Below, piece by piece: positions 1,290 to 56,340 of a stretch of DNA of 64,000 bases. Positions within the stretch are counted from its first letter, which is position 1. Every line of letters starts with the position of its first letter. The notes under the pieces were generated by a model. It saw only the letters and a program-made list of their open reading frames with translations, did not search any database and was not told the DNA's origin. This DNA is from Hyaloscypha bicolor E (taxonomy: Eukaryota > Ascomycota > Leotiomycetes > Helotiales > Hyaloscyphaceae), in NCBI RefSeq assembly GCF_002865645.1, contig NW_020194627.1:496001-560000 (forward strand), in the 5' to 3' direction. Both the position numbers and the translations under genes were made by a program.

Positions 1290-1650
1290 ATAACGAGGGG
1301 CCTCGATATAGGGCCGATGCCGATCAAGGCGTCCCTTCTCATAGTAGAGAATAAATTGGCAAAAATCGGCCATCTCTCCGTAAGTGCTTATATTTGGCGG
1401 TGACTTGAAACTAGGTAAGACTACTATTAGCATAAGGAGAAAGCAGTAGGGGAGGTGATAGGGTAATGAGAAGCTAGTCCAACCTAATATGAGCGACAAA
1501 TTGGGATGAGATCGAAGGAAGGATGATACTTGAGTTGAGGAAGACGAGCGTTTGGAGAATAAAAAGAGTTGTGGGAGGTCGATATACGGGCGGCCGCGTT
1601 TTATAGGGGTTAAGCGGCCGCTAGAGCCATACTAGGGCCTAGGTCACGCA
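1290..1650. other. Upstream spacer with paired NotI-type palindromes
   Basis: Upstream side of the 2EXR gene. It contains two GCGGCCGC palindromes at 1590-1597 and 1614-1621, 24 bp apart. The composition turns abruptly AT-rich just right of them, so this is the edge of the RIP-affected tract. No gene is seen. Confidence 0.5.
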
Positions 1651-4600
1651 AGCATAGCCTTAACGACTAGCCTTAATGCAACTCTGATCTGGCACATCGG
1701 TGGCAAAGTGGTATAATCAAGCAAAGAAAGCAGGGAGACCAAATAGTGGTATATTTGACTAAGGAGCTAAATATAGTCTCAAGATGTTTTATCCTGCTTC
1801 GCTTATATCACGTCCGTCGACCCACAATATGCTTTAAAATTAACTGGCAGGTTAATTTTTACTGGGCGAATTTGTATTACCTAATCTATCGGGAGTATTA
1901 TAAAGTATCTAAATAACGGCCTCTAAGGTCTATACTATTAATTTTGCTTTCTAAAGCTCCTGGGATAAGGCAAGGTTCGAGTTCGATAGAAGCTCGCAAT
2001 AATATCTCATCTAGCTATAGTTATATACGTATTACACTAATGCTTCGGTATACTTATTAACCTGGGATTAAAGCCGCCGATTTCTTTAAATCTCTCGTGT
2101 GACCTTAGTATGTTTAATTAATAATTCTTGCTCGGTATTCTGGGTATAATACTATAAGTCATATATATTGGTAATACTAATACTATGTATTATAGGGATA
2201 TATGGGACTTCTTTAAGGTTATTATTAGATAGGTATTCCTCCTAATATATAGTTAGAATTATACCTTACTAATAGTAGTAAAGTACTTACTAATGCCATA
2301 TTATATTTAATATAATATCTTTTAATATCTTGTCTTAAGGTAAGATAAACTTTATATTTTGGCCTTTCGAGTCTTATATACCTAATTATATATTATTATA
2401 TAGGTTATTAAGGTAAAGGTTTTAAGACATTATATAGTATAAGGGTAATATTATTAGGAATATATTACTATTCCGAAAATTAATTATAATTACCCTAAGT
2501 CTATTAATGATCTATACTAAGCCAAATTACCCTTAAATAGATAAGGGCTTAGTAACTTAGTAACTATCTTAACCCGAATACTTAAAGGCTATAAAACATA
2601 AACCTATTTAAAGTTCTAATTATTAAATATTAAATGTTTAAAGGCTACTAGAACTATAAAGATAGTACTAGAGGTACGAACTAATTATTTTTTATAGTAA
2701 CCTAATCTAATAAGTATAGAAATGTGTCTTATTATCTGGGTTAATAAAGACGTCTTTATAGGAGAGAAAAAAAGAATTAATAAAGAGAAATCGAGATTTC
2801 ATTATACTATTTACTAACTGGTTTCTAAGTTCGTTCTGGGGCAAGAAGTATTACCGGGGCAGGAAATATTACCTCCTTTATATAAAAAAGAAGCCTCTGT
2901 CTAGTAAGGCCCTTAAAAAGTAATTTTTAAGAGACCCGACTCTCTTACTTTTCCTATATATACAGGCTATTATAAGCCTATAGGCACTCAGATTTTAGAG
3001 GAGGTTACTAGTTCAGAGAAATAATTAGGGAAAGGTAATAATAATGGATTTAGGGAATTACAAGAAATATGAGTTTCCTATATATAAATCACCTAAGAAT
3101 ATATTACTAATTATAAGAGAATATATCTAAAGTTAATCTTTAAATAAATTAGTTTTTGCAAGAGTATGAGATAGTTAGTAAAAGTATTTCATGAATAGGA
3201 TATAGTATATTTATAATAATAAGCTAATATATAGATGTCTTATATACTAAAATAGCTAAAATAGCTAGATAGTATTACTAAATAATTCTAACTACTTTCT
3301 ATTATTCGTCTATTCTAGTAATATACTTTATAAATCCTCTAACTATAAGCATATAGTCTTTTGCCCTGGCCTAGTACTAATACTATAATAATTTCCAATT
3401 CTCCTTATTATTTAGTTATTTCTTTATAGGTTTTTTATTTGAAAAATATTTATAATACTATCTTACTATTATATTACCTGCCTTTCTTTCTACCTAAGTC
3501 GTGTACTTAGTTTCGGAGGCCTCTTATAAAGATTTAAGCTTTAGCTTATACTTTTCCTCTTTTTTCTTATTTATATTTTTTTCTTTCTTTATATTTTCTC
3601 TCGCTTCTTTCTTTCTTTTCTTTTTTTATATTACCTTTAGTACTAGTGTCTTTTTATTATCCTTATTCTTTGCCTTTATCTTTACTTACTTATTTCGAAG
3701 TTTCGAACTATTCGAACCCTTATTTCGGAATAAGCATGTTTTATAAGTATTTATTATATCTAAATAGCTCAAAACATATTAGAATTTTCGCTATTAAGGA
3801 AGAAATAAAGAAAGATTAATAAATAATTATATAAAACATATTTTAATATAGAGGAAAATAATAAACGGGCCGACTTGAATATAAGTAAAAGAGATAATAA
3901 AAAAATATAGGAAGAAGTATAATAAGGTAGGCAGTTATAAATAACTCTATTATGTAATAATTCCGAGGTCACGTGCTACTTGCAAAATCTTTGCCATGTC
4001 CTAAGATTAGTCTTATTATTGAGATATGGCTAATAATAGTTAATATAAGTTATTTAATCTCTGGTTTCTATTACCTTGCTTAATTTTAGTTTACCCTAAC
4101 TACTTTACTTAATTTTAATTATTTCCTTACTATCTTGCTTAATTTTAATTAATCTTTAAATTAACTATTTCTTAACTATTACCTTATTACCTTATTATCT
4201 TATCTAATTACTATATAAATTACTATTATAATATAACTCTTAGGATCCGGCTATCTTGTTTTACCTTATATATTACTTATATAGGTTAAGTAACTTTATA
4301 TATATCTAATAATTCTCTAGATACTCGAAGTTACTAGTAAATATTATAATTATTTTCGTATTTAAATAGTTCTTAAAAAAAGGGCTAATTTCTCTAACCA
4401 GGCCATATATTATAATAGTATATACTTACTAATATTAGCTTTATATAAATTAAGGCAAAATCGGTATTAGGCTATAATATATAAATTAACTCTATTATAT
4501 CTCAATTTCTTTTTTATATCCTATAAAGCAATACCTATTCCTACTTTTCTTTATTAGTAAGTAGTTTAAAAGTAAAGTATTACAAGCTCTATTCCCTAGT

Positions 4601-14265: not shown

Positions 14266-14452
14266 TTATAGTGCAAGCCGCGTTGGCGGAATGTTTCTCC
14301 CAGGTGCTTTTCAGTTTTATATCGCCGCTGCGTTTTCCATATGTGGCCCAGTTCTCATAGGGTAGTGCGTGACTATCCAGGTAGTCCGGGGAGCATCATT
14401 CTGATGGTCACGACCACATTAAGCGAGGCGGGTCCTTGTGCCAATGCGTTTG

Positions 14453-14741
14453 CACTAATTACTTCCTGGTACCACTTGGTTTATGGTACCAACAAATGAT
14501 TTGTACTAATAATTTGATACTACTACTAATTTTTTAGTACTAATAAATTTCTTATACTAATAATTTAATAGTACTACTAGCCTATTAGTACTAATGGTTT
14601 CTTTATGCCAGCAAATTCTTTATACCAGTAATATAATAGTACTAATAGTTCCTTGGTACTAATAGTGCCATGGCACTAACTATGCGTTTATACTAATAGT
14701 ATTTTGGTGCCAACCCAATTTTAGTACTAACCTTTCATAAG
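14453..14741. repeat. 17-bp minisatellite, 17 degenerate copies
   Basis: Perfectly phased 17-bp repeats starting at 14453. The first eight bases are conserved as TACTAATA (variants TACCAGTA, TGCCAGCA, CACTAACT, TGCCAACC) and the last two are usually GG, AG or TA. The period never slips across 17 units. Differences between copies are mostly C/T and A/G transitions, consistent with RIP or deamination acting on a once more uniform array. It lies outside any gene I can identify. Confidence 0.9.
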
Positions 14742-15397: not shown

Positions 15398-16549
15398 CCT
15401 ATATTTATTAAAATAGGCTTAAGCCTCTTTAATTAGACTAATATCTATAATATAATCTCATAAAACATACTAATTTTTATATACTTATCTAGTAAGAATA
15501 AAACTTTGGAACTATTAAGTCTATTATATACCATGCCAAATTTCAATAGATATTACATGCTTTTAAAGACCTTTAGGCATATTAGTAGGCTGCTATTAAA
15601 TATGGACAAGGGAATTATCTAATAATAAGTAGTAAATACGTGTAATTCCTCGAGGGGAAGTGGGATAGCTATAATTTATTTGAGAGTAGTAGCTATATAA
15701 TTAGTAATAATATAGAAAGCACCTTTAAATTAATATACTCTCATAATAGCGAGTAGGTTCTCATGCTAGTGTTTCCGGAGCTCCGTAAAGTTATTAGAAA
15801 GAAGCTTCTTAATAGTAATTATATAAACTAGAACTTCTCGCATATAAGCTACTATAATCTGGCCACCGCATTTAAGGTACCGGAGTAATACGTATGAAAT
15901 CTATGAACTCTTTACTCTAATAAGGGAAGGCGGATCTAGTTATAATAAATTAATATTTATTATAGGTATAGGTCTTTCTAAAACCGCATTAGGTGGGTTT
16001 ATTCTTAATAGTAATTGAGATAGGGCAGTTATTTCCTTTTTAGGGATTTCTTTAAGACATAATTTCTCTTTTTCTAATAAGAGGATCTTTTATATATCGG
16101 AACTTCCTAGAAACCGGGTATATTAGTTAGTATTAATATTTTTCTTACTAGTATGAATATTAGCTAATAGGTCTTATACCTCTTTACCGGGAAAACGGGT
16201 TTTCCGATCAACCTTTGGCTTCATGGTTTAATAGCCTTAAAATACATATTATGGGTAGTTTGTAATATATACTATACTATAATTAAATTACCTTGCTTAA
16301 CCTCTATGCCCCTAAATAATTATTGCCCTATCTCGCGTAATTCTGACTACCTTATACTCTCTAGATATAAAGGATTTATATTACCTAGGAAAGTACTATA
16401 ATATTAATTAATAGGGAGATAGAAGAGAGGAACTGCTATGTAGTACCTCGATTTCTATCCTCGAAATATTAAGCTAGCTTAAGTATATAGGTTTATGCCT
16501 ATATTATATACCTAGTATTACCTAAGTTTATTACTAGGTTTATAGAAAT
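15398..16549. repeat. AT-rich RIP tract
   Basis: Decayed sequence between the fragment at 15.3 kb and the DUF3723 relic. Nothing can be assigned. Confidence 0.5.
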
Positions 16550-18829
16550 ATTAAATTCGGAGCTTATTACTCTCGAGCTAAAGATTATAAGTAATAAGCT
16601 TGCCAAGTTTAAGGATATAGCTCGAGTATTAATTACTTATCTGGACTTTCTATATCTAACCCATTAGATTAATAAAAAGATTATTAAGTAATTAATTAGG
16701 GACTTTAATAGTAAAGAATATATTCGAGAGAAACCGAGCTATTAGATTCCGGCTATTATAGATAATTCGATATTAGAAGAGGTACTAGAAAAGATTCGGC
16801 TAATTACTAAAGTATTTAAAGCTAAAGTTAATAATTTGCCGGATTTAAAACTAAGAAGGGAAATGAAATTGAAATGCCTTTATAAGTAATACCGAGTTCT
16901 AGTAATAAAGAAATATCTTAATATATTATAATAATAGTAAATTATTAATATTTATAGGACTAGTAAATATTATTATATAATTAATTATTTATGCTAACTA
17001 ATACCTAGATCTTAATAAGAATACTAAATAAGTACTTTATAAGGGATATTTCTATTCTGTAAAATATATATTAGGCGAAATATTTCGCTATATAAGACTC
17101 TATTACTATAATAATAATACTTTGAGAGTATAATATTAGCGGGAAAGATTTACTTTTTCTTAAGATTAATTCCTAGAGTAATTATTTAAGCGTCCTATAC
17201 TTATTATAATACTGGATTCTATTCTCTATATTTAAGGTATCTAGAGATAATTCTATATAGAATTACTAGATACTTTCTTATTCCCGAAATATAACGAGGT
17301 TAGGTTTTATAAAGCTTTTAAATAATAAGTCTAACTTAGTAAAGAAAAAAGCATATTATATTAAGTTTATTAAGATAATTTAGACCCGTATATTTAATAG
17401 TAATATTACAAAAATAATATAAACTAACTTCTTTACTATAGAATCTTTATAGTCGAGAGTACTAGTCTTTTTAAAGTCCGACTTCGAGTTTATTTAAAAT
17501 AGTATGAAATATAAAGAGCTTTTTCTAGGAATTACTAATTAAGTAAAGAGAGATAATATTACTTAATACTTACTTGCTTTTGAGAAGCTAATACTAATTC
17601 TTTATATACTAATTAAAGATATTAGGTATTTAAAATAGCTAGCCAAACTCTTAACTAAACTTTTACTAGAGTCCCGTAAGAAAACTTTTTGCTAATAGTA
17701 GTATTATTATTTTACTAACCCCGGATTAAGTAACTAGACTATTAAAATATAACGGAGCGTATTAGGACCTTATATAACTATTTTAAGTTACTATCTTAAT
17801 TCTTTTAATATTTATTATTAATAGCTATAGCTTTGCATATATAAAGTCTATAAATATTTAAATACATATAGTAAATTAAAGCTAGTATAGCTTGCCTAGT
17901 AACTAGGCTTCTGAAATATAAAGATTAAAATCGAAGTAACTAAGGATCCTACTTAAGCTATAATTAAAAAAACATTTTAAGAAATACTTTATATTCTATA
18001 GCCTAATGAAAATTTTAACTTTAATACTAAAAAAGTAAGACCTATTATTATCTTATTTAAGGAATATCTAAATTGGCTAGAGCTAAGTCCCGTAAATATA
18101 GTATATCTAGTAATAACCGTAAATAGAATAGGGGTTCCGCTATTAGCTAGGTATGGTTATAGTAATATAAATATCCAGGATCTCGCTTATCTCTTTTTTA
18201 ATAAGATTTATATTCCTTTCTAGGAATATAAAAGAGACGGAGATAAGATTAGTTTCTTTTATATTAAATAATTATAATATATTATATTCTTTGGTTTACT
18301 AGATCTTACGGGTAATCACGAAAGCGGGTTTCCTTAATATAAATGCAGGCCTACTTAATTTAATTCCGGTAATATATCCCTAGAATAGTAATTAACTAAC
18401 TTGCCTAGTCTTACTAGAGAAATTACTAGATCTGGTTCTACTTACTTTCTAGATTAAAATCTAGTTAAGAGTATTTAGGGCAATATCCTAAATAAGGTTA
18501 TAGTATATTTAGATCTAATAATTAGGTTTATAGGGAAAGATATTCTTTTATAAGAAGTACTATTTAGGGAGCAAGATATTAATAATTAAGTAAAAGAATA
18601 TACTAATTAAGGCAGGAAACTTTATATAGAGCAAGGTGCTTTTTTTCTTTAGTAGTATTATTTTGAGATACTTATAAGGACTAGATAGTTAACTATATTC
18701 GTTACTACTATTTCTTAACTAGTTAATAGGAAGCGCTATAGGAATAAGGAGCTACCTAATAGGTTATAACTAGTAATAAAGGACGATTTTGACTTTATAA
18801 TAGAAGATGAGGAGGAATTGCAATCTTAG
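16550..18829 (+). pseudogene. DUF3723 relic (Starship accessory family), RIP-inactivated
   Basis: Plus-strand translation shows the DUF3723 N-terminal signature at about 16740-16925: IPAIIDNSILEEVLEK, NNLPDLKL, then KCLYK-YRVLVIKKYLN. This corresponds to the family's 'CLHGRHRIxAAxxFL' element, with its His and Gly codons mutated. After a badly degraded middle, a long coherent stretch runs to TAG 18827-18829 (YGYSNINIQDLAYLFF, FFGLLDLTGNHESGFPQYKC, VNRKRYRNKELPNRLQLVI, an acidic tail DFDFIIEDEEEL). Stops are TAA/TAG at Gln-type positions. The function of DUF3723 is unknown; it is one of the accessory families repeatedly carried by Starship giant transposons. Assignment is from memory of the family pattern. 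Confidence 0.6.
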
Positions 18830-20224: not shown

Positions 20225-20360
20225 TCTATAAGATCATGTGGGTAGGGGATTTGTAACCTCTTGCTAGTAACTACCTAGAGAAGTAAAAGGAAGCATAATT
20301 TGCCTTTAATTGTGAATAAAAATAGGGCTTAGAAGGCGTGCCTATAGAATAGACTCGAGT
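20225..20360. repeat. Dispersed repeat, copy 1
   Basis: Shares a long match with about 24065-24200: GCTAGTAACTACCTAGAGAA followed by GTAAAA, then TTTGCCT-TAATT-TG-ATAAAA and GGGCTTAGA. The two copies differ mainly by transitions. The sequence is non-coding as far as I can see. Confidence 0.6.
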
Positions 20361-34542: not shown

Positions 34543-34766
34543 CGGCTGCTGAAAGGTGGTTTTATTGCACCGCCTTGATTCGAACCAGCCGTCGGCGGGG
34601 CCACCTTGTCAGTCCGCGTGCTGCAATCGGAGTGCAGATTGGGATGCTGCAAGCTTAAGTCGTCTGATCGGTATCTACTTTACTTACTTTTATTGAGTAA
34701 CTTTATAATATTAAACTACTTTTCTAAATTAAAATTATTTTAAAATGCGAGTATAAATAATTATAG

Positions 34767-36437: not shown

Positions 36438-37085
36438 TTTTCAGCCCCTCTGTTAGGTCATGTGCAGCATTGAGTTGGCATATTTGAAGGCAGCCACAAA
36501 ATTAATTCGATAAGGAGTGAGTGATCCCATTTGCGAGCCAGCTACCAGCCTGCAGGTGGTGGCGCTGTGTGAAACAAAGTAGGCGTCGGGGAACCAACCG
36601 GGCATGCTAGAGCTTGCTGCCGTGGCTGGCTCTTTGCGGACGTCGTAGGTGCCCGACGGGTTGCGCATCGTATTCTCGGGCCGCACGAAGCCCTGATATG
36701 TTCCTCTGTCCTCAGTCGCCCTGCTTTGGGCAGCATACTACTAGTCATCGCGGGGATTACATACTGTACGGGATTACCTAGTAGATCCCGAGGCCTGTCA
36801 GACTAACGTGGGATCTGGGTATTTGAGCATGATGGGTGGGGCGGAGGGGGGGCGGAAGCTTAGTCTACCTATAGGTAGGTTAACATGTAGGGGTAGGCAC
36901 GTGGCAGGGAGGAAATTGCGCTAGCGAATCTAGCCAGGCTTTCTCACATTACCTAATTGCTAGGTGGTAGGTATCCACTTCCCGACAACCAGTTCGGCAC
37001 AGCCGCTTTGACATCTTCATCATCTACCATCGTTTCCTACCAACGCCTTGGCGGAATTCTTAAATAGCCTTCTAAGATATTCAAG
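36438..37085. other. Divergent promoter region
   Basis: Lies between the 5' ends of the CorA-like gene (minus) and the subtilisin-like gene (plus). Minus-strand frames at 36453-36748 are GC-rich but carry no recognisable feature. About 36865-36900 has short TAGGTAGG-type repeats and a G-rich run. Both genes may be expressed from here. Confidence 0.4.
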
Positions 37086-38553: not shown

Positions 38554-39733
38554 TACAATTCCGGAATTTATTGTGGAGGCAACAATTTGGGATGTCTTAC
38601 ATCATCCAAGGGGAATGCTACGGTCTTTATCTACCAAGAAATATATCCATGAGCGCAACCATCAAGTCAAGCAAATGACTATGATCTACCGGGAGAGGTC
38701 GCGCGTCATTGTCTTGCTAACCCTGCAGAGAATGATGCTGACGAGGAGCTGGCCTTGGAATCAACACTCTAGAAGTTTCGTTCAAGCCGTACGCTAAGCA
38801 CATTGTTCATACACCCCCGATCGGTAGGAGTTTTCACGTGGGATGATGCAGACCCATGGTTCGAGCAACCGGAAACCGTGAATCATTCTGTACTTCGAAG
38901 GACTGCATAGACCTTGCTCGTTGTACGAGAAGGACCGAAGAAATGGCTTAGGGAAGGAAGTCAGAAGTAGAATATCTAGATCAGAATCTTAAGATCATCT
39001 TTAAACAGCATTCTCAACCCTAAACTCGTAGAGGCAATGGAACAGTCCAGTTATATGATATTATCAAGACTCAATTTAGAAATGAGAAGTGCAATAGCTT
39101 TCTAAAGAACTTTTTAATATAGACCTCTTATAGTTCAGACAACTCTCTTCTTAAGTTAGAAATATAATAATATTAAGTCTGCTTCCGAAGCTCGAAATAT
39201 TCGCTGAGGGAACTGACTTACGGTCATGAATTTTAGCTCCTTCAGGTTCTAGGTGGAGCCTGGTCTGCCCCGAGGCCAAACGATCATAGCCTTCCCACGA
39301 AACGGAGTCTAAAACTGCTCTGTCAAACACGTGTCTCCCAATCCTTCACCACCAATCATCTTGACCCCTTCTGACAGCTCGTAGCCAATGAGATGAATTA
39401 AATAGAGGCAGATCGACGACGCAGAGGATAGCAGTGCCAGAGGGTAGAGGGGCAAGAGGGTCTGTGCTTTCAGGCTACAAGGGCGGCTAATATGAGGCTC
39501 CTAGATTCAGCCGTCTAGCCAATTAGCATTGATTAGATAATTGACCGACGTTATCCGTCGAAGCCAAATGCCGCGGGAAACCTACTTAAACGCTTCACCC
39601 CTCTAGCGAGAGTTGGCTTTCACCTTAATCGGCTCTCTTCACTGAAGCGACGGCACCTTTCTCCGCATATCCTTGAACGCTATTGATATTGGAGTCGCAA
39701 ATCACCTATTATTAGTATCCTCTCTATTAAACG
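38554..39733. other. Intergenic region
   Basis: Normal to slightly AT-rich. A frame at 38492-38797 overlapping the protease end is a shadow. No coding pattern, RNA gene or repeat was recognised. Confidence 0.4.
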
Positions 39734-39814
39734 ATGGTTGAGTGCCAAACTTGCCAGGACAAAGCCCCACCCGGAGGGGGCGAATGCCCTAGTTATGGGA
39801 AAGGTCAGAAATGA
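39734..39814 (+). CDS. Possible first exon or small ORF with CxxC motif
   Basis: ATG 39734 opens MVECQTCQDKAPPGGGECPS and stops at TGA 39812-39814 (26 codons). The C-x2-C plus a third Cys resembles the start of small zinc-ribbon proteins. A GTCAGA...TTTTAG intron could follow from 39803. The downstream sequence is interrupted by the hAT-like element at 39953, so any larger gene is broken. Confidence 0.25.
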   Translation: MVECQTCQDKAPPGGGECPSYGKGQK

Positions 39815-39952
39815 AAAGGTTCGAACAGGGAGGATTTTAGTAGTACCTGCTAGGCAAACATATCTGGGTTCGGAATTCTGGTCTATTATTTACTAAGACG
39901 GCCTAATTGACTATTTTTAGGTGAAGACAATGTTTAAGCTTGTCGGCGCTTC

Positions 39953-40984
39953 AGAATCAGGCTCGGCAACGATTGCTGAGCAATCGATTAGTAATCGATT
40001 GTGTGCACTATTGATTAGCTATCAATTGTAATCGATTGGTAATCGATTACTAAACGATTATTACCCCGCACCCCACGAAAGCTAAGCACTAAATTTTTAG
40101 TACCTATAGCCTATAATTTAGCGATCGTAGCCCTAAAATTTAGCGATAAGCAGCCTATAATTATAGGGCTCCCTTTTCCTCGCGACCACAAGCCTCGAAG
40201 CTCACTTCTCACTTTCTCTCTCCACTTATTGCTTTTTACTTTTATATACTCGCCCTCTTAACCCCTCCCCCATTAAAAGTTGCCAAGCTTATGGGCCCAA
40301 GGCAGCCAGCGTATGGGAGGGCTAGTGGGAGACTAGTGGATTTGTACTATATTAAGGGGCCTTTCCCTGCCTTTAATAATGAGAACCAAGGCTTTTAACT
40401 ACTTAAATTTAATATCCCCTAATCCCCCCTTTTACTTTTATACTTTTATATATATAGAGAGAGAGAAGAATTAAAGAGAGAGTAAATACTGAGAGAAAAG
40501 GAAGGAGGGGCAGTAATATGTGAGTGCGGCCGATTTTTGGTAGGGTAAATCGTAATAGACCCCCTTACTAGTATAGACTATATCTTACCGGATACAGGAA
40601 TAGCTATTAATATCATCTCAATAGTACTAATGAGCGATAGGCCAGAGGGAGTCTTTTCAGGGGCTTATCGTACGGTAAGCTACCTAGAATAGGGGGCAGC
40701 TTGAAGCCAGACAAGATGCAGGAGTACCTTAAGTACTAGAAAAGGAGCAGAGTTCTAGATACTTTCTTTAAATAAGTAAATAAGAGAGAGCCTTACCTTT
40801 ATTATATATAGTATAGTACTCTACTAAACTCCTGGATCTTCTGGCATTAGAAAAGGGGTAAAATCATACGTATGTAGGGATTAGCTCGCTAAATAATCGA
40901 TTGCACTATCGATACAATCGATACCTTACGATTGTGGCATCGATTGTTATCGATAGTGCAAAACGCCAATCGTTGCCGAGCCTG
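39953..40984. mobile_element. hAT-like non-autonomous DNA transposon, about 1.03 kb
   Basis: Terminal inverted repeats CAGGCTCGGCAACGATTG at 39958-39975 and its exact complement at 40967-40984. An 8-bp direct repeat GGCGCTTC occurs at 39945-39952 and 40984-40991, sharing one base with the right terminus and separated from the left terminus by AGAAT. hAT elements make 8-bp target duplications and often start CAGxG-TTCGGC. Subterminal zones on both sides are dense in AATCGATT/ATCGAT repeats, also a hAT trait. No transposase frame is present inside, so it would depend on an element elsewhere. The 5-bp offset on the left is unexplained. Confidence 0.7.
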
Positions 40985-41173
40985 GCGCTTCTACTTGAGT
41001 CGATAAAGCCTACCCTCGCTTAGTGCCGAACATATTTAAAGAATATATATGTGCCTGCCGTACATTTCTCAGATTTCAAGTTTAAAACTCTGTGTACTGG
41101 TTTAGTATTTTCGAGTTACGGAGAAAGCCACTTGCCTTATTTGCTTTTATCCGAGGTGCGCGGATCAAGCAGC

Positions 41174-41535: not shown

Positions 41536-42474
41536 ATGGCATTGACCGTATTCGAGCTAGAGGTCGCGAAATGTCTGTTTAAAGGAGGCCCCGGCTACTC
41601 CGAATTAAAAGACTCAGTAGTCGGGGATAGTATCTTGGAGATGGAGAAGAGGAACTTCGTATTTTTTACGGAATATGGCCTGGACTTTTGTAAATAGTAC
41701 GTCCTTAATTCGGTAGGCAGAACCAAATATTCTATAAATATCTATCTAATCTCTTCCAGAGAATTATACCCATTATATAATCCTTTTTCGACGGCGAAAT
41801 TTGCGTTCTAGTATACTAGTTAAAATACATAGCGTACCCGGGCCATATCTCGTTCTTTAGGAGCGGTAGACCTGAGGCCGGCCGGCAGGCTTTATTAGTC
41901 TTTCTAATAGCTAAGGGATCGCGAATATTATACTAGAGTAATTCGCATTAATATGCGTTACCTTTTACTAAAGGGAAAAGGTACTTGTATAAAGGTATTA
42001 AATCTGCCCTCCTTATAGCAGGCTGCCGAAGGAAGAAAGAAACATATGCTAATGGCGGCTTATAAGGTTCCTATTACTATTATAGTTCTTTATTCTAATA
42101 TATCTCGCAGATTAATTTTCGATACTTAACTAAATTTCGGAATAGAGAAAGGAGATATAATTATATTTGAGTTTGTGACCCCTAAAGTAATTAAATAAGT
42201 AATTGAACCGTGGCTAATAATAAATCTTCCGGACATACTAGAGCTAAGACAAAAGGTAGCAGATATGGGAAGTAGTAAAATCAGAATAAACTTTGTATTT
42301 ATAGTTCCTAAAAGTAGAAAAAGAAAAAGGATTTCCTAGGTAAAATATAACTTTCTATATTCCCAGTCCTTATCCTGCCAATTCCCCTATATAAAGTTTA
42401 TTATAGTATTTATTAGAGTATTAAAGCTAATAGGATTCGGAGGTGCGGTTAGGTCTTTAGTAGACTCGGGGTAG
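41536..42474 (+). pseudogene. 313-codon RIP-killed gene of unknown family (plus)
   Basis: From ATG 41536 to TAG 42472-42474 a single phase is kept. The first 53 codons are fully open (MALTVFELEVAKCLFKGGPG, KDSVVGDSILEMEKRNFVFF). About eleven TAA/TAG stops follow, all where Gln is plausible (SISRSL-type text such as YTRVIRINMRYLLLKGKGTC, NFGIEKGDIIIFEFVTPKVI, GSSKIRINFVFIVPKSRKRK). There are no indels. Last part overlaps the convergent relic on the minus strand. A DNA-binding or enzymatic role cannot be told; no motif recognised. Confidence 0.6.
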
Positions 42475-43604: not shown

Positions 43605-46600
43605 ACTCCCGAGATTTCAATATTTGCTTAATTTATTTAAGGGGGCGGGGATAGTAATAATACGAACGCATCCCTAAATAACATCTCGCTCTCGCTAACT
43701 AATACAAACTGCCTTATGTTTATATAATCTAATAAGATACTAGAGAAAAGAAAAATTTGTAGTTAACTCGAATTAATAGCCCGTACCTCTTCCTGGATAT
43801 TATTATAATGTTAATGCGTATGAATAATACTCAGGATACTCGCGTGTTAAAAACAAATGTCATAAAATAGCAAAGTCAAATAAAACTCAAAACTCTTACT
43901 AATAAATAAGTCAGAAAACTTGCATGTATTAAAGGTATTTTGGAGGCTTATTCTAGTCCTAAATAGTATTTAACTGTAATTCTAGAAGCCATTATAGGAA
44001 GTAAGAAGATATATATCCCGGTGCGTTTTCTATTACTAGCTTCTACTACTACTTTCGCGCCCAGGGCTTCTATTTATTATTCTGGATTCTAAGGTAAAGT
44101 ATTAGTTAATATTAATACTAAACCGCATAACCAAGCTCTATTATAATAATAATATATAATAATACTAAAGTTATCTAACTAAAACGCTATTATCTTTAAC
44201 TATAATATAGACCTTGACCTCTATTATATTTCCTAAAGCTCCGGATACTAAACTCAAGAACTTAATTCCTTTAATATAGGCTTTCTAGCTTATTTATATT
44301 AAAGTATATACTATATTTATAGATATAGTATTATGGTACGAGATTATATTTAAGCTAATATCTAACTTAATTAAATCCCTAATTAAATACTACTAAGGTA
44401 TTTATTACGTGAACTTAGTAAATACACATGCCTATTTAGAGCTAGAAGTTAAGAAGCTATAAGAGGAATTTATTTAGGCTATTTATAAGTTCATATACCA
44501 TACTTATATATTTACTTTAGAGAGACTTAAACCGGATAGTTCTGGGGAATTATTATTTAAGGAAAGTAAAGAAGTTAAGACTAATATTCTTAGCCTTTTC
44601 CTATAAGCTCTATCCCAGAAAATACTTCCTCCTTTATATTAAGAGCCACCTCTACTACTCCCGTATCTAATATCCCGAGAACTAGTTCTAGATAACTAGG
44701 TTAGAGCCTTTTTAAATTTTTTTATCTTATAATTTTATATAGGAGTTTTAGGCTTAGGTTATAATACTTAATTCTTTTTAGGTTAAAAATATATATTTTA
44801 TTACTATATTAATAAGCTATATTTACTATTTTATTTTCTAATTACGTTCCCGTTATCTTTTCTTTTTCTGCCATAGTATTATATTAAGCTTTTAATAACT
44901 ATAATTATTATACGAATATTAATAAGATTCTCGCTCGCTATTCTAGTTAATAAAACCCTAATAAACTAATATATTATAATTATAAAAGTTATAATAGCGG
45001 CTTCTAATCTCGAGATTAAAGTTATAACTTAGAGTAAGTTCCTTGCCTTTAAAAGTTATTTATAAGTCCTAATAATAATATAGAAAAATATACTTTTTTT
45101 AATTATATGCCGCGAAAAGTAAGAAATATTATTCTTTTCCCTTAACTTAATTATCTCTACTACTATATTTGGCTTATAGCTATAATTAGTAAAGCAGGTA
45201 GTATTAGACTTATAAATATAGTTAATAATATTATATTTATTAATTATAAATAGGAAATATTCCTTAATACTAATTCCCTAGTAATACTTCTCTAGAGTAT
45301 CTACTTTCTTAGCTATAACTTTCCTTTCTATTAACTTAATAATTATCTCACCTTCCCTAATATTTTTCTTAGTAAATAACCCCAATTTGTAAATTAGTAA
45401 TAATATAACTTTTATAGCCTTAAACTCCGAATAGCTATAACCCGGTTTAGATAAATTATTTAGAAAAAGTCTAATAAAGAAATCATAAAAATAAATTGTT
45501 TTATAGTATTTCCGGGACTATACTAGTAATTACTTGCTTTTTTATTTGTGTCTCGGTATTATGGGCCCGCTACTAGAGGAGTCTATTTAGTAAAGAAGTT
45601 AAAGTCCAGGTATAGATCTTTATATCCCAAGTATAAGTTAGTGCGGGAGGTTATACTAGTTAAAGATAAATCTTTTCTATACTCGCTATAGGGACTCGGA
45701 TAATAGTAGAAAGAAAGAATTACTAAATATAAGCCGCCTCTAAATCTCGATTAATAAGCGAGCCTCTTTTAGCCTAAATTACATATAATAGCGCTTCTAG
45801 TATCTAAAAAACTAGCCTGCTTTAATTATTTTAGCCCGTTACCGGATTATTAGTAGGCCCTATTATAATAGCCCGCTATATAACTATTATAAGAAGGAAG
45901 AATAGCGAGAGGCCTTTAAGTAAAAAGAATAATAATTAGAATATAAAAATACCTTAGCTAATTCTAGAGATAGATTTATTATTTTATATAGACGGGAGGA
46001 ATTCTAGCTAATTACCCAAGTTTAGGAACTAGTATAGAATAGGTAATCCCGATTCTTGGCTATATAGAGAATAGGTATAAAGGCGTAATAGTATAGTAAT
46101 AAAGGAAATTATATATAAAGACATATCTAATAATAAATATCTAAAGATATTAACTCGTATATAAAAAGCGCTATTAGAGGCATTATATAAGCTACTTGAG
46201 CTATCTAATTACCCGAAGTATCTATTAACTTAGTATTAAGGAAATCACGAAAGGAAAAGCTCTTTATAATTCTTTTTCTATTTCTTTTCCTAAAGTTTAC
46301 TTTTACGAAAATATAACTTCTTTTTCTTAAGATAATTATTTAAGTAACTTTATGCGGATTTAATACTCAGATAATTAAACTACTTAATTCATAAAATAAT
46401 TATTTCCCGTATTATTCTTTAGTTAAGAATAAGAAGGAAAATATCTAGCGTGATTTATTTCCTATTACTTTCTAGCCCGGTATTTATTAGTATTATATTT
46501 AAATACCTATATTAAGCTTTATAACTTTTCTAATAAAACCGCAGTTTTATATTAATAGTTATTACTATTATCTTCCTAATATATCCTTTATTATTAAGAG

Positions 46601-49600
46601 TATAACTAGCCTTGCTTTAAATATACTTAATATTCCCGGGCCCCAAGAATATAAACTATAAATAGCCACACTATACTAGCAGAAATTAATCTAATAATAA
46701 ATACTCTTTATATATAACTCTTTTATACCCTCCGTATAAAAGTCGCTATATAATTCCTCTTAGCTATTTTAATTTTTGCCCTTATACTAAAGATATTAAA
46801 ACTATTAGAATTATTAACTTATAAATCATAATTCTATATTATTTTCCTTTCTCTTACTATTACTTTTTGCGTATTCGCAAAATAGTATTATTTAATATAG
46901 ACAAGAATAGATTTTATACTATTAATTTTCGAGTATAACTAAGTAATAAATTATATAAAAATAAGAAAATAATATAAAGCTTATATTATAAACTATATTT
47001 AGACTAATTTAAAACATCTTTAGGAATTAATAACTAAATTCCAAGTTATTTTTGGCTCGAAATTTTCATCTCTAAAACTCTATCTTATTACTCTAATACT
47101 AAGCAATATCTTTACTTATTATCTAGTCTCTATTTATTAAAAATTAAATAGATTAATTATATAATTATAATAGCTTTATTTAAATAATATTTAAAATCTA
47201 TAAGAAAGAAAAAGCGAATTAAGATAACTTAAAAAACTACCTTTTAACTAATTAATTATTCTTACTCCCTGCCTATTATCTAGGGAAGAGAGGGAGGAGT
47301 TTCTCTTATTCTCTTACTAGGTCCCGAAATATTAGTATTGGCTTTTTATTTCATACTAGTAATAATACTTAATATTTCCTTTAGTATTTCCTGAGATTCA
47401 TTTTTTTCCTCTCTACTATCTTCTTTTGCCTTTACTTTAGTAGCTATTAGAAATCTGCTATCCGGGCCCCTGGATCTTCTTATTATATAATTATGCCTGC
47501 TTTTATATAGGTACGGTTTTCTTTCTTTTAATATTAAATAAAAAGCCTCTTCTAATTATTATCTTACTATATAATATTTTAGAATTCAGTAGAATTATTT
47601 AGTATTAATATATAGAGGAACTGGCTTAGGCGGCTCTAACTATAGCTAGCTAGATATAAATACAGGCAGTATATAAGATAAAGACTCCTGTTTTATAGGT
47701 TATCTAAAATCAAATACATTTTCTCCTTAGCTAGAGGCAGCCACTATAGCTACTTTTACTACTACTTATTATATGGTTTTTGGTAGGTATTAGAGTACTA
47801 GGTTAAGGTAATTATAACTAGCTTACGGTTATAGTAATTCTCGTAAGTATTTAGTATATTTAATAAATATAGACTTATAGTAAGATATCCGGTATTATAG
47901 GTACTTTATTAGTTATATTAGCTTAGTAGATTTATATCTCCAAGTTCTCTTATATAGTATAAATCACAAGGTTAAGGCATATAAAATAATAGAAAAGAAG
48001 AAATTAATTAAGCTTAATAAGTAGCAGGTATTAAGAATTAAGAAACAAATATAATAAGGTAATAACTCAATAAATACATAGTAATAGTACTAAAATATAA
48101 AGCAGGTACTAAGCTAAAGTAAGTAGTTCCGGTATTTAAGGAAAAGAAGATTATTACTCGAGATTAGTAATAATTAAAAATACTAATTTTCCCGAGAAAC
48201 AGAATTTATAATACAGGAATAGCGAGAGAAATATACAGGTATTAGTTCGGGAAACGAGTATTTTCTAATATATTAGTTAGCTTTATTATTATCTTATCTA
48301 AGGCTTAAGATTACTTTATAGAAATAATATCTAAAATAATAGATTTAAGACTAGATAGTAATTAGCCAAGATATAAGTAATAAAGAAATAGTAGGATATA
48401 TAAAGTAAGTAGGGAATAGGTAGGAAATAGGTAATAAAATTAGTATAAAAAATATATAATATAATAATTAATTTATAGGCAAAAGATAATAAAGAAATAA
48501 TTAAGAAATAATAAAATAATAAGGAAACTAGGTCCATATAATGGGATTAAATTAGTAATAAGAGGCTAATCTTCCTAAATAAGTACTCGCTTATATAAAC
48601 TTCCGGCTTACGGAGATACCTAGCCCAAAACTAGGGATAATTAAGATATCTCTTATTTCCTAATTACTAAAATAATAATTACGCTTTCTCTTAATTATAC
48701 TATTAGTTATTAATACTAGTAAAGTATTCTTAAGCGAGATATCTCTCGGTATTAGTTAATTAGCTATTAGAAAAAGGAAATAATATCTTACTAGGTCTAC
48801 TTATATAGTTTTAATTTATATATGGCCCGTTTTCTCTTCCTTACTTTCTCTTTTAGTTTAATCTAGTTCCCAAAAATATTTAGTTTTTTTAATATTATTA
48901 TATTTTTCTACTATAATTTAATACTATATAAATTAGGAATAATCCTAGCTATTTAAATACGAGAAATAATTCACGTAGTTATTTCTTAATAAGAGAGGCG
49001 AATTACTATAAACTAGATAGAAAACATATATAGGAATATTAATAAAATAAGGTAATATATATATACCCGCCTTAAATTATTCCTAATTAATTAAATACTC
49101 GTACCAAGTTCCTCTTATAGCCTTTCCCTAACTCTTTTATACGCCTCTTATAAAGTGCCTGCGCCCTCGCGCCTATCTCTAGTAAAGTTTTTATTATAAG
49201 AGTATTTAATAAGCTAATCTAAATTAATTACTTTTACTTATTCCGAGAAATGCCTATATTAGTTTTATTACTAGTATTCTCTATCTTAATATAGTTTATT
49301 ACGGGAGCTAAGGCTACTATCCTTACTTAGTAATACTAGTATAAATAGATTCTTACCTAATAATACTAGTATAAATAAATTACTGAAATTAATATAGCTT
49401 TAACTTTAATATTCTTAGTTATTAATATATTACTCTTAGTATTTTCTATTTAGTAAAAAAAAGAAATTACTTAATAGATTCTTCTCTTATTAGCTAATAA
49501 AGCTTTAATTCTTTATTAAGTAAGTTACCTAGTTCTTTAAGGAGCTATACTAACTAGCGAGTTAAATTTTTAGTAGATATATATATTAATATTTCTAGCC

Positions 49601-52600
49601 AGGAAGAAGTTTTATAATAAGTATAGGAATATAGTAATAATTCATATAGTTATTATTATTATAGTATTTATACTTTCCCCGGTACTATCTTATATACTAA
49701 AGAGAACTACTAAGGGGCTTTATCTCGCAGGTCTTATATTCTTTATAGTAAAGTATTATATACTATATAGTTTCTATTAATATGACTATTATAACTTATA
49801 TAAGATACTAATCTCTTAGCCTCTAATTCCTGACATTCTCTAATCTAATAAAATTCTTAGTATAATTACTCTTACTACTACTATTCCCTTTACTATTTAT
49901 TACGGGAAAGGCATAATTAACTTTAAGTTAACTTTATAAGTAAATTAACTTTAGCTATTCGTAAATACCCTTTAATAAGATATATAGATAAAGTATATGG
50001 CCACTAAGATATAGCTTCTATAATAGGTACTACTAAAGTATTTATAAAAGTTTAATATTAAAAAAGTGATTTGGTTTTAGTAATAGCTATAATATTCTAT
50101 AACTAATATAAACTCGGATATACTAAGTTTTATAATACAAGAATTACCTAATAAGTTAATTAAATTTCAATTTTTAGTAACTAATAAAGACTCGAAAACT
50201 CGAAGTATTATAATAGATAAAATACTATATATAAAATCAGAAGTCATATTACTATTACTAGTCTATTTTTCTAGTACTATAATATATAAAAGTAGGAATT
50301 CATCTAGAAGAACTATAGGCAAGGAACTACTATAATACTAATAGCAGGGATAATATTATTATCTATATAGGTATAATAATTCAAATAATAATTATAGTAA
50401 TACTTTATATCCTAGTTATAATTATTTATATTTATTAAGAAATAAACTATAATAATAATATATTTTATATCTTAGTAACCTAAATTCACGATATATAGCT
50501 AACGTACTTGGTCTATAAACGAAATTAGTACTTAATATTCTTAGTAATAATAGACTTAACCTAACTATAATCCAGCTATATATACTAATATATTTATAAG
50601 CAAAATACTTATTATTACTAAAAATACTCACGATATTAATTCATAATAAAAAAGCCACATAAATAAATAAGAGGAAATATTCCTATCTATTACGGGACCC
50701 TTATTAGCCAAATTAGTAATATCCTTGGGCCCTTTTATAGAGTATTAAGTCTGCCTTAAGATATTAGGTTAAACCCGACTTCCGCTACTAAATATTCTTT
50801 TAAACCTTTTGCCCCTGGCCACTACCTCATATATATAAGCCGGTTTCCTTAGGCAGCTAACGCGGTACGAGTATTAATATAGCTACGCTATACCTTAGTC
50901 TAGACTCTTTTACTAGTATTTACTCCCTTAATAATATTATTCCCTTAACCCCATATACTAATAGGGATACTAGAATAGCCCATGCCTCGTGTCTAAAGAA
51001 ATCTTATATATAAACGAGCTACTTAGCTACGGAATTACTGATCCTTATAACTCGAATTCTATAATCTAACTTAAATTCATATTATAAACCGCTCTCTACT
51101 TATAACTTACTAATTTTTCCTAAATAACTTTCTTATTTCTTTAATACTCAAAAATTAAGATATTACAGGCATATTACTTATTAAGAAAATATAAACCCCA
51201 ATTATAGATTCTTTTTCGAGCTAGGTAACTATACTACAAAGCCATATTTCCTATTTTAGAATTGCCATATTAAGGCCCAAAGTTTACCTAGTATACTCAT
51301 AATTCCCAAGTTAAACCGCCGGGAAAGAAATAAAGTTTATTAGGGTAATCTAGAGACTTAGAAATATACTTACTATTAAATCTAGTAAAGTCCGAAGCTA
51401 GTATAACTCTCACTAAGTTACTATAGCCAGAGATTAGACTAGCTATATAGTTTAGGATAACAAGAATTAATATACTATTATTAGGAAAACAACCTTATAT
51501 AGCGGAGCCCGGTCTATTACTAGCTTTAGAAAACCTTCTAATACTTCCCAAAAGTTTACTATAATAGTATATATTATTATGGCAAGTAAGTAAAAGTACT
51601 ATACTAGCTATAGGAATCATATTATAAAGTATAGGTCTATTCATATTTACTTCTCTCGCAAACCTTTTATAATAAGATAGATATATACCTCAAGTCACTA
51701 TATCTTATTCGAGTGCAATAGTATAGTAAGGAGATAGAATGTAATTCTAAGTACTATTATAATAATATAAAGGTTCGTATAGTACTTTAGCTACCTAGAT
51801 AGAAAACAGCTTTCTCTAAGGTAATATAAGTAGCTTAAGGCAGATACTAGTATTAGATCCTATTTATGTCCTAACTTTTATTACGCCTATATACATGTAT
51901 TATATACCTATAAATATATACCAAGTATTGCAGTTAGCTAACGAAAAGCGCGTGCTTAATATAGGAGCCTTAGTACGATTTCATTAATAGTAAAAAAAAA
52001 AAGAGCAAGAGGCTAATTATAATATCGAGAAGTTCTAGTAGTAAATAAGGGAGTTAGAGAGAAAGATTAGGGAAGTAAAACAAGAAAGAGACTTCTACTA
52101 TACTAAATAAAACCGTTTATATAATATTATATATAGGACTTCTAGTATAAGATACTTAATTATATAAGCTCTTCTAAGTCCACAAAGTATATACTCCAGG
52201 TTATTCCAGAAATTAATATCTCAGGTAGGAAATCCCCTACTTTTACTTCCCTTATAAGGAAATTTCACTAGCTTATTACCCTATATACTTCCTCTAGCTT
52301 CTATTTTACTACCTATTTAAGCTAGCTATTTACTAGGACCTAGTTAAGAATTAACTAGTCTTCCCTCTTTATGAGTCAAGAATAAATAATATTAGATAAA
52401 AGGCAATGTAATTACAAGCTAAAAAATTCATACGAGTATTATCTCTACTAACTAAATAGGTTACACGAATAATACTAGTAGCTTCTTTACCTACTAATAA
52501 CTCTATACTTCACAAACATAATTATTATTCCCATATTATTATCCTAACCTCGAGATTAAAAGATAAAGACACCCTATTACTCACGAAAATCTAGTTAGGT

Positions 52601-53979
52601 CAGGTATCTAGTAATTATTCCGAGAGGAAATATAAGAAATATATAAAAAAATACACCTTATATTATAGTATTTAGAGTACTTAAATTAGAATAAAGACTC
52701 TATTATTTTATTTCATATACTTAGTTAAAGCGTAAATACGGAAAGCTTCTAATAAGCATATTCTTATAATATACTATAGCAGAAATAGTCGGCGCCTGGA
52801 TATTAGTTTCCGATAATCTTAATATTCCTTTTTTTCTAAAATATAAGGAAATATAAAGTTTATAAGCTAATAGCTAATATATCCCGTATTTATTACTATT
52901 ACTAAAAACACGCATGGTATGTAGTAATTCGCAATAAAAAATATAGAATATTAGCTTTACTAATAGTTAGCTAGAACCCGAAATTATTCTCTAGCTACTA
53001 TATATTTATTTATTACATACCGCAAAAATAACTAATTAATAATTTATAAGAACCTCACAAGATCTAATGAATTAATTAGTTAAGACAACCTCAAGCCTAA
53101 TACTAATACTTCCCTATCTAATAAGATATACTTCTCTCATATAATTTCACTCTTGCAATATATAAAGAACATACTAGAGAAAGACAAATAAAGCCCTTAT
53201 AGGGCTGCGCCCGCGTTTCTATTCCTTAATTTTTAGTTACACAAGCCCCACTTTATTATATATTATACTTTAATAGTAATGGCAACGCCATTAATATCCT
53301 CATTAATAAATAAGGATCTTTATATATATAACATTGCCTTTTAATACTAGCCTATATAAAACTAATCTATAACTTCGTATTTCCACTCATATAGAATCCA
53401 TACAAACTAGCCTCTTTTTCTCTAGCATATATACTATAGATCTCGGAAAGTAATACCATGCGTTTTTTTTATATAAAGCTTAAATATATTTATAATATTA
53501 AAAACTACTAGAATAGCCTCGCATATTAGATAGTAATAGGCAATTATTAGTCCTGGCTTCTTATACAAGTAGCTCTTAATATAATCTATTATTTTCGCGG
53601 GCTAGTAAAAGGTCTTTTTCTTATTTTTACTAGTATAAAAAAAAATATATTAAGTCTTTTTATAAATAAGAGAAACGGGCTCTAGATCTAGAGATAATTT
53701 ACTCAAAGAATATTTTAGGGATAATACTTTACTAGTAGACTAGTAGCTAGAGTAATTACTAGAGCTATTATAACTCGAGACTAAATAAAGTTTAGGTCTT
53801 AGCGTCTCTTACTAAGAATAGAGTACTACTATTAGATTAATCGCGTGAATCTAGTATTAGATAATATCTTTTAGACTTAAGTTAATAGGAAAGTTATAGA
53901 GAACCTTCTATAGCCAGGTCTATTTAGGGAATTAGTAATAGATAACGGGTTTTATATACTCGGTAATCTTAATCTTATT
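43605..53979. repeat. Large AT-rich RIP tract
   Basis: About 10 kb of the most strongly mutated DNA, with stops in all frames. Local protein-like phases exist, for example 44340-44640 plus (YVNLVNTHAYLELEVKKL) and 45840-46000, where the decayed Cys/His-rich text could be a zinc knuckle. No gene can be named. It probably contains several nested transposon copies, and cargo of the putative Starship if the captain relic to its right belongs to one. Confidence 0.6.
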
Positions 53980-55960
53980 TAGCTACCTTTATAATTCTTT
54001 ATTATAAATATAGTAAAAGTACTATTACTAGAATACCTTCTTAATATTATTTTCTTACTTCTTAATTACCTTATTAATTTTTTAATAAAATATCTAGTGC
54101 CTCTTGCCCTTATTTATTCTTAGTACTAGGTATAAGAATTTATATTAGCTTTATATCTTAATATAGAGGGCCTTTTACTCCTTTTTCTATTTAATAATTT
54201 TCGGGTTACGAGAAAGAATATCTTTAATATACCTAGGGATATTCTTTAGGGCGCGCGGATTATACGTAATACTCATATATATAAAGGCATATATGAGCCT
54301 ATTAATAGATAGTTATTTTATTACTATTACTTAAATATTAAATTAAACCCGAGTATTAAGATATATTATAATAAAGATCGCCAAGTTCTACTCATGTCTC
54401 ATAATCTAGTTATAAACGGCTATTATAGCGGCCTCTAATAAAGCTTATAAGAAGAGAAAAAAGTAAGGGAATAAGATATACTTACTATCCGCGGCATTCC
54501 CTATACCTTAGTATATATAGTAGTAGGTAAGCCTTTACTCTAAACTAGTCTCTTATTCGAGATAATCCAGGTAATATATAAGGGTTAAGTAATAAAGAAC
54601 TTTATATTCTGAGGTTCGGAACCTATTAGTAGTTTATATGACTTATTAAAAGATTAGAACCTTTAGTTTTAATAGCTTCTAATATACCCTAATTGCCTTT
54701 ATAAGGTCTTTTAGGTTTATAGTAAAGAAAGATTCCGTACCTATAGGGCGGTTATCTACCCGAATCGCGTTATCTCGGAGCATAATAGCCATAATATAAG
54801 TAATTAGATAGAAAATAGGGAGCTCTTCCTTGCAAAAGAGGTAAGTTATACTATGAGTTATGTTATGGTTAGTAGGGTTAGTAAGAAGAAGAAAGCCCGC
54901 CTTATAGCTTGGGTTTCTTATTAGTGCCTTTATAGTACTTGAGGTTAATCTCTATTATAACTAGGTCACGCTTCCCAGGTTTGGGATTCTATATAATTCA
55001 GAGTCGGATATTCTCGTAATAAAGTACCTTATAATGTCTTTTGGTATTAGGAGATTTCCTAATATTATTATAGTAATTAGTATTATTAATATTATCCTAA
55101 GGTTTAGCTTAGTTATAGTCAGGGTCTTTAGAGTAATCTATTGGATCTAATTCTTTATTATCTAGGTTATTAAGGTCCGAGATAAGTTCCTCCTTATTAA
55201 GGTTAGGGATCTCGGGATTCTCCTATAAATACTTATAAAAAGCATTATACTTTATTATATTCACGAGCTCTGCTAGCTATACCCCTATAAAAATAGATAA
55301 AAGAAGGAAAGTTATAAGTATATGGCGCTAGTTCTCTATTAGGAATACGCAGGTATCCCTGGCCTAGAGGTAGGTAAGTAGGAATAAGAGGTCGTCCGAT
55401 CCTAGTATGGGCTTATTCTTGGGTATAAGATCTAGCTTAAATTTTTCTTTTAAGACAAGGATATACTATACTAAATATTAATATTTCTAATCTTCTTATT
55501 TACCTTAGTATATATAGTATACCTAGCAGACGTTTTTTCCGTGCCCCTTTTAGTAGTTTTTACTACTAAATACGAAGCCATTAATCCGTTTATAAAGTAT
55601 CTAAAACTACTTCTAGTACTAGCGGAGCGACTCTATCTTAAATACTTAATAGTTCTTATAGATAAAGCAAAGAAATACTATTATAGTTCCTTTATAATAC
55701 TTCCGCGCCTCTTCCTTCTATTTTCCTAGCTTTACGTACTTATAGTACCTATAAAGTATTAGCTCTAGCTAGGGTCTTCCTGGCTCCGGCTAGTATATAT
55801 TACTGGAATTTATTCGTGATACTATTAATATTCTCCTTAGTAATATTTATATCTTTCTGCTATAAAGGGCGTACTATATTAAGCTTTAAACTAAGGATAT
55901 TGAGTTCCTCTAAAGTAGTCTTTTCCTTTTGCTCTCGTGCCGTGGGCTTATTGCACTAGT
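53980..55960 (-). pseudogene. DUF3435 tyrosine recombinase relic (Starship captain family)
   Basis: The minus strand translates into a recognisable DUF3435 (FluG-type) protein. About 55470-55280 reads EKFKLDLIPKNKPILGSDDL, LLFLLTYL-ARDTC and FLLLSIFIGV-LAELV, the family's 'ARDTSVFPTERQR...YTGARPAELV' region with Gly/Arg codons mutated. About 54950-54840 reads LYYENIRL-IIQNP and KRDLVIIEINLKYYKGTNKK ('YEDIRLWIVxNP', 'LxHHKGxxxKP'). About 54760 reads IMAIMLRDNAIRVDN. About 54500-54350 reads GNAADSKYI then IMRHEQNLAIF ('GNAxxxxxSxxxRxxxMRHxxxxxxF'). About 54250-53980 reads YNPRALKNIPRYIKDIL and a coiled tail YNKELQRQLNK. Intact members cut and join DNA to move Starships. Stops are mostly TAA/TAG; at least one frameshift near 54800. 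Start not determined, likely about 55.96 kb. Confidence 0.8.
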
Positions 55961-56340
55961 TAATATATCTGGTGAGAACCGCTACGGGGTCGTATGGTTA
56001 CTGGGCGGTATTAACTTCCATACTCGCGGCCTTGGCTTAACTCCAGAGGGACAGACGTCGACAGAAGAGTAATAGAGGGTAACTGGACTTTGCGAGCCAA
56101 GATTTGCTCTACTTGAGATTAGACAGAATGATTACTTGGGGCCTCCCTATGCGAGTAAAGGGGATTGGGGAAGGCGATAGCCATGGCAATAGGGAATATG
56201 GCCCTCTATATTTGGCTGCCCTCCATGTTTGGCTGCCCCTGATAATGCTCGCTTAATTTGCCCCCTAATAATACTCGCTTAGTTTTAGTATTCCGACCCC
56301 CCAAAAACAGCGACATAACTATCCCGGATCTGGGGATTAG
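55961..56340. other. Short normal-composition island upstream of the captain relic; tandem direct repeats
   Basis: Composition returns to normal for about 380 bp between two RIP tracts. Two adjacent 17-bp copies (CTCTATATTTGGCTGCC at 56204 and CTCCATGTTTGGCTGCC at 56221) are followed by two roughly 25-bp copies containing ATAATGCTCGCTTAATTTG and ATAATACTCGCTTAGTTTT. Being immediately 5' of the DUF3435 gene, this is where the captain promoter and the end of a Starship would be expected. No inverted repeat or target site could be proven. Confidence 0.5.

Follow-up and report, generated by a model that had tools for sequence, protein, structure and literature searches.

The window analysed here, a stretch of 64,000 nucleotides of Hyaloscypha bicolor E that corresponds to positions 496001-560000 of contig C50 (C1, C51 and so on are contigs of the same genome, which counts 82 Mb in 76 contigs), contains near its right side the remains of a captain, the DUF3435 tyrosine recombinase of the Starship giant transposons, together with a sharp terminus that appears to be the 5' end of such an element. 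In Starships the captain is the first gene at the 5' end, the termini carry short direct repeats and the cargo often includes DUF3723, FRE, PLP and NLR genes. The features recovered are collected in Table 1; they include a DUF3723 relic, several segments that recur elsewhere in the genome and a stretch poor in repeat-induced point mutation (RIP). We consider it likely that the window holds a derelict, RIP-destroyed Starship, with its recombinase end preserved and, probably, a large part of its body.

The captain relic is nearly full length and contains stops. Its Pfam score alone is weak (DUF3435, PF11917: 17.4 bits, E 0.0023, with a cut-off of 25.8) and none of the 62 hits listed in the genome-wide PF11917 search lies on C50, but it is recognised when intact captains are used as tblastn queries. 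Residues 33-758 of the Sclerotinia captain P0022 cover 55937-53443 of the minus strand in three pieces (combined E 5.7e-62 in a search space of 124 kb, composition correction off), and the intact, spliced captain of 755 amino acids on C51 matches the relic at E 5.9e-13 in a search of the whole genome; eight stops fall within 54908-55447 in the alignment with the C51 captain. Judged by this similarity, the region is the relic of a Starship captain, in agreement with the initial annotation, which had placed a DUF3435 relic at 54-56 kb on the minus strand. The best-scoring named relatives of the C51 captain are found in the Leotiomycetes (Cadophora, Lachnellula, Botrytis, Pseudogymnoascus), with other classes lower among 80 hits. 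The captain of C28 was considered as the nearest relative and rejected: it stands at 42% to the C51 captain, and its top database matches (up to 79%, partial) differ from those of the window's captain.

The relic is the first gene at this end and reads inward, from an island of normal composition with short direct repeats that had been noticed before. The distance between the first matched captain residue and the terminus is 427 bp. The terminus itself, which the initial annotation had predicted near 56.3 kb, could be located at 56364/56365, and copies of the region to the right of the captain share the same abrupt edge. Directly beyond it the window consists of AT-rich repeat DNA. For the part 56365-57100, 40 of 1245 candidates were scored, giving 39 other places at 85-88% identity; since the genome searches scored the best candidates only, this and other copy counts are lower bounds. 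Rightward of 57100 there are matches to C29 and C1 (81-87%), and a tandem duplication of around 830 bp (82.6% identity) occurs at 57567-59273. In all seven repeat copies that were compared (L036, L037 and L040-L044; of the 11 fetched, L034, L035, L038 (minus strand) and L039 were left out), the match with the window sets in at C50:552364, which is position 56364 of the window. The copies themselves continue leftward past the junction, where they are mostly 81-91% alike. Given that they run uninterrupted across the junction, they can be used as paralogous empty sites. On the minus strand these read TTAC-TAGAATT-A, which in the seven copies is compatible with TTAC(N7)A, the target of the Hephaestus family according to PMC12153272, although in repeat DNA this rich in A and T an A following N7 carries little weight. 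The likeness to Hephaestus concerns the TTAC at the junction and the form of the paralogous sites.

A pattern of 28 bases from the terminus was found 15 times in the genome (at most 3 mismatches), and the reversed pattern, used as control, not once. Twelve of these termini were read (C51:1229200, C54:1503433 and C56:824832 were left out). By eye, TTAC precedes the conserved block in 11 of the 12, with a spacing of 4 nucleotides in ten and 2 nucleotides in one, and the remaining locus has TAAC. The sequence that precedes TTAC varies between the loci, and similarity among the copies often ends after around 95-115 bp, whereas those at C33:1079918 and C69:158925 share 88.6% identity along 1.5 kb. 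The captain would act at this conserved terminus. Within it lies a dyad whose two 14-bp arms pair at 9-13 positions in the 12 termini read, compared with 1-8 for slid versions. The paired changes are not independent evidence, because RIP strikes both arms alike, and folding of the single strand does not reach significance (z -0.4); one might guess that the captain binds the dyad. On C51, the intact captain begins 432 bp in from an end led by TTAC, and a multiple alignment brings this end into line with the terminus block at the cost of an 11-base gap. The dyad is not seen at that end, where the arms pair at 7 of 14 positions and slid versions reach 8. The same stretch, C51:2032500-2062105, has an open DUF3723 gene around 25 kb downstream of its apparently intact captain and is a candidate for a living Starship in this genome.

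The DUF3723 relic that the initial annotation had proposed for 16.5-18.8 kb on the plus strand was recovered 37 kb downstream of the captain relic. Pfam recognises it at 1.4e-15 in the best frame, with weaker matches in the other two, and a query from C28 covers it in three pieces (combined E 6e-92). Within the genome, 17 of the 32 merged DUF3723 loci are found within 100 kb of one of the 38 PF11917 loci, where uniform placement predicts 3.0 at most, and 15 of these 17 lie downstream of the captain. The DUF3723 relic of the window counts among the loci lacking a PF11917 neighbour because its captain scores too low. When the captains found with the C51 protein are added (58 loci, 4.5 expected), 22 of the 32 loci are near a captain and 19 of the 22 downstream of it, the window included. 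These expectations are crude, as uniform placement ignores that repeat-rich regions cluster; moreover two DUF3723 loci have the same captain as their neighbour, and both the 100-kb limit and the 3-kb merging were chosen after the hit lists had been seen. The convergent order of the window, with DUF3723 on the plus and the captain on the minus strand, recurs on C28, where the two are 64.5 kb apart and where the sequences flanking DUF3723 upstream and downstream have matches in the window (modules X and Y); a minus-strand captain with a plus-strand DUF3723 downstream is also found on C62 and C71.

The proposed fossilisation by RIP is borne out by the composite RIP index, which amounts to +0.8 to +1.5 per kb in the blocks at 2-8, 16-19, 26-30 and 44-56 kb and is intermediate at 19-26 and 40-44 kb. 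It is negative at 31-40 kb (-0.2 to -0.8 per kb), so that the permease and subtilase genes are flanked by RIPed stretches; the region 8-15 kb is RIP-poor as well (-0.9 to +0.3), and a Pfam scan of its minus frames, and of the plus frames over 9-13.8 kb, gave no family. The permease (Transp_cyt_pur, 4e-7, purine-type) and the subtilase (8e-7) correspond to the permease and protease genes of the initial annotation, whereas for the CorA-like gene reported with them a six-frame search of 30-40 kb gave no hit at E 0.01. The permease has a single 79% relative, on C19, among the matches listed. Besides that relative, a search with 30-45 kb, in which 39 of 243 candidates were scored, returned only the piece at 41605 and a repeat at 39958-40985. 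The latter is around 1 kb long with inverted ends and has copies on C1, C22 and C70. Considering that these are 99-100% identical and show no RIP, it is suggestive of a recent non-autonomous DNA transposon and of RIP being weak or absent in this genome at present.

These data would fit the following course of events. A giant element would have been inserted by its captain recombinase at a TTAC within a copy of the AT-rich repeat, and the element would extend leftward from 56364/56365, carrying DUF3723 and other cargo. Multicopy segments (the captain, the DUF3723 module and the cargo at 44-53 kb) would later have been mutated by RIP, and the single-copy DNA at 31-40 kb would largely have escaped. 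We infer from this that insertion came before duplication-dependent RIP, that the RIPed cargo at 44-53 kb was formerly duplicated, and that the whole of around 15.6-56.36 kb belongs to the element of one captain.

The extent of the element is less clear than its 5' end. The initial annotation had drawn a single element from 1650 to 56340, of which the left coordinate is supported solely by a change in base composition. In C50:436001-552364 the other half of the interrupted repeat was not found by blastn above 100 bits, nor was the 22-base junction word at up to 5 mismatches, and neither the 3' end nor the second flanking direct repeat was found in these 116 kb leftward. Either the element is larger than around 116 kb, or its left end has been rearranged, lost or degraded too far to be seen. 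Permissive alignments for a left boundary gave composition noise only. The left edge of the window is un-RIPed and carries a 2EXR family domain (7.8e-15; 969-1259, minus strand). The patatin-like phospholipase that had been assigned to 4.7-7.6 kb on the plus strand was not recovered either. No Pfam hit was obtained there in the three plus or three minus frames, a genome-wide search gave 39 patatin matches, none of them on C50, and the one frame searched for homologues (4601, plus) had none. Several RIP-tolerant patatin words were tried; a single one, the loosest (ATSAAP type), occurred at 4.7-7.6 kb on the plus strand, once, at 6261, and words of this type are found throughout the window. The Starship proposal thus holds for the captain, its orientation, the 5' end, DUF3723 and RIP; the patatin and the CorA-like gene are unsupported, and the extent as a single element is conjectural.

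Apart from the missing left end, several observations weigh against the reading as a Starship with its body. The empty sites are paralogous copies in the same genome and not the locus of a related strain. The TTAC-led end on C51 has no blastn match above 60 bits to the other termini, making the multiple alignment the only tie between them. None of the 14 other termini found with the pattern has a captain above the Pfam threshold within 10 kb, and only the one on C29 has a captain relative close by (2.9 kb). Furthermore, 15 of the 32 DUF3723 loci, that of the window included, are more than 100 kb away from any PF11917 locus. Finally, the segment 14449-14735 recurs near captains (e.g. on C27, C22, C1, C28 and C71) on the captain's own strand, and its orientation in the window would require a plus-strand captain. 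This segment is also found near the termini C33:734850 and C50:782573, is inverted at C54:1503433 and is locally duplicated in some copies. The segment 29805-30000, which recurs near segments of the 14449-14735 type on C27 and C22, does so in inverted relation, and this likewise counts against a simple single element.

Given the orientation of 14449-14735, the body may be mosaic or nested, that is, the captain (53-56 kb) and the DUF3723 module (15.6-28.8 kb) may derive from different Starships via nesting, inversion or exchange of cargo. The distance from DUF3723 to module Y, around 10 kb here and within around 1.5 kb on C28, is in line with this, and so is the fact that DUF3723 and the piece at 41.6-42.3 kb point toward the window's captain, where on C27 and C3 the captain, DUF3723 and the piece are all on the plus strand. 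Direct repeats of 64 bp (88% identity) at 20258-20321 and 24089-24152, 3.8 kb apart between DUF3723 and module Y, could mark a nested insertion. However, the combination of a minus-strand captain with a downstream plus-strand DUF3723 is also seen on C28, C62 and C71, and the queries used revealed no second captain in C50:436001-560000. A captain at C50:471-476 kb, at which words resembling the 5' end had hinted, was dismissed in the absence of a plus-strand Pfam hit and of tblastn support. We hold a mosaic to be possible, though unlikely.

It is improbable that only the captain unit, at around 53.3-56.36 kb, was mobile as a short Crypton-like element, with DUF3723 and the leftward cargo being unrelated RIPed DNA. 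The similarity to the three DNA relatives of this unit (on C29, C1 and C72) stops at around 53.3-53.5 kb, which is the end of the captain gene, and most other termini are without a detected captain, both as expected for such an element. Of these relatives, the one on C72 exceeds the PF11917 cut-off in the genome search (26.4 bits) and falls below it in the frame scan (23.4 bits), in which those on C29 and C1 gave no Pfam family. Starships, however, also have a conserved captain and variable cargo. Against a Crypton-like unit, DUF3723 lies near captains, and on their downstream side, more often than expected, and two leftward pieces recur at some other places in a comparable position to captains or to DUF3723. 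The piece at 50.7-51.0 kb, 2.4 kb from the captain relic in the window, has a captain in matching orientation 24-47 kb upstream of it at three of five other places (C73, C5 and C3). The piece at 41.6-42.3 kb follows DUF3723 by 25-31 kb at three of the six other places listed (C27, C3 and C62:730759), and by 23 kb in the window. That independent RIPed repeats adjoin here by chance, without any Starship, is hardly credible despite the repeat-rich and RIPed nature of the region, considering the nearly full-length captain, the terminus that coincides exactly with a target site, and the co-location counts; the junction in particular largely refutes it.

Table 1. Features of the putative Starship and its surroundings (window positions; RIP, repeat-induced point mutation)
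Feature	Position	Strand	Basis or remark
Target-site TTAC (GTAA on plus) at junction of element and host repeat	56365-56368	minus	uninterrupted repeat copies
AT-rich high-copy repeat DNA, host side of the insertion	56365-64000		repeat matches
Putative Starship 5' terminus, conserved, ~100 bp	56269-56364	minus	15 pattern matches genome-wide
Dyad, first arm, 14 bp	56332-56345	minus	Watson-Crick pairing count
Dyad, second arm	56288-56301	minus	Watson-Crick pairing count
Direct repeats, short (17-bp and 26-bp units)	56201-56285		5' region, normal-composition island
Captain relic, DUF3435 tyrosine recombinase, nearly full length, stops inside	53443-55937	minus	tblastn with intact captains
bZIP-like gene relic, RIPed, tentative	51770-52098	plus	paralogue C5:1522549-1522877
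Repeated piece	50727-51037	plus	copies on C73, C5, C62, C70, C3
RIPed relic	49403-50008	minus (alignment strand)	relative C51:2219621-2220244
NF-YA/HapB-like relic, RIPed	47292-47618	minus	Pfam CBFB_NFYA, tblastn
SET-domain relic, RIPed	45095-45385	minus	Pfam SET, 2.7e-6
Repeated piece	41605-42320	plus	copies elsewhere
RIP-poor stretch	31000-40000		permease 31673-33051 (plus), subtilase 37972-38331 (plus)
Module Y, matches sequence downstream of C28 DUF3723	28519-28785	plus	E 1.5e-9
DUF3723 relic	16509-18796	plus	Pfam, tblastn versus C28
Module X, matches sequence upstream of C28 DUF3723	15619-15913	plus	E 4.5e-9

The RIPed putative cargo next to the captain contains several relics that resemble regulators; frames with X at stops yielded the NF-YA and SET domains. 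The CBFB_NFYA domain (1.2e-9, 47451-47618, minus strand) is one of three NF-YA sequences in the genome, besides the intact host gene on C46 and a partial match on C70. Of its differences from the host gene over 159 columns, 36 are in the RIP direction, 5 are reverse transitions and 6 are transversions. A fresh copy of the host gene is disfavoured by protein ranking: host HapB comes 68th of 121 rows versus the relic (72.0 bits, with 86.7 for the best) and a recent self-copy is therefore unlikely, although RIP damage weakens this argument. The host HapB itself has matches up to 95%, the nearest named ones being from Phialocephala and Mollisia (83-84%); with the relatives of the C51 captain, these make a host from the Helotiales probable. 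For the SET relic, a DNA match on C54 shows no clear RIP bias over 188 columns (16 RIP-direction, 9 reverse, 13 transversions), and this match has stops in every frame read. Between the tentative bZIP-like relic and its C5 paralogue, 81 changes run in the RIP direction, 5 are reverse and 10 are transversions. That paralogue contains a stretch resembling bZIP but remains below the Pfam cut-offs (bZIP_2 20.6 with a cut-off of 22.3, EMP24_GP25L 20.9 with 25.9), and the relic itself gave no Pfam hit. The two pieces of the relic at 49403-50008 show 32 RIP-direction changes, 4 reverse and 14 transversions, and 27, 3 and 11, respectively. A further segment of the window, 22663-23487, has a single 79% relative (C75:764526-765338) among the matches listed. 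It is conceivable, but rather doubtful, that the NF-YA/HapB-like, SET and bZIP-like relics formed a set of regulator genes carried beside the captain, and that a Starship lineage moved core regulators of transcription and chromatin between fungi before RIP. A literature search for Starships with HapB or CCAAT-binding cargo gave no such study among the papers listed, and HapB appeared only in a paper on accessory chromosomes of Tremella.

Derelict Starships mutated by RIP are already known. The Prometheus Starships of Paecilomyces variotii and Spiromastigoides are, according to PMC11623301, heavily RIPed with a RIP-free cargo region, which is attributed to a second element without that cargo. 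The same reasoning applies to the RIP-poor cargo within the RIPed element described here, which differs from Prometheus in having one end located, other cargo and another captain, and no experimental history. The GtA Starships of Gaeumannomyces tritici are described in PMC11905480 as gene-poor and RIPed over the entire element, with an average composite RIP index of 0.2-0.3. Extensive RIP over a Starship is shared with these, whereas the relic blocks of the window reach around +1 beside RIP-poor stretches.

The exact 5' boundary of a dead Starship was thus obtained without a related strain, by using copies of the host repeat as empty sites. This approach could suit other RIP-rich genomes, in which elements escape notice as the captain gene no longer scores. 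The analysis further provides a single genome with 15 pattern matches to one Starship terminus, and the regulator-like relics, if they are cargo, would broaden the known range of what Starships carry.

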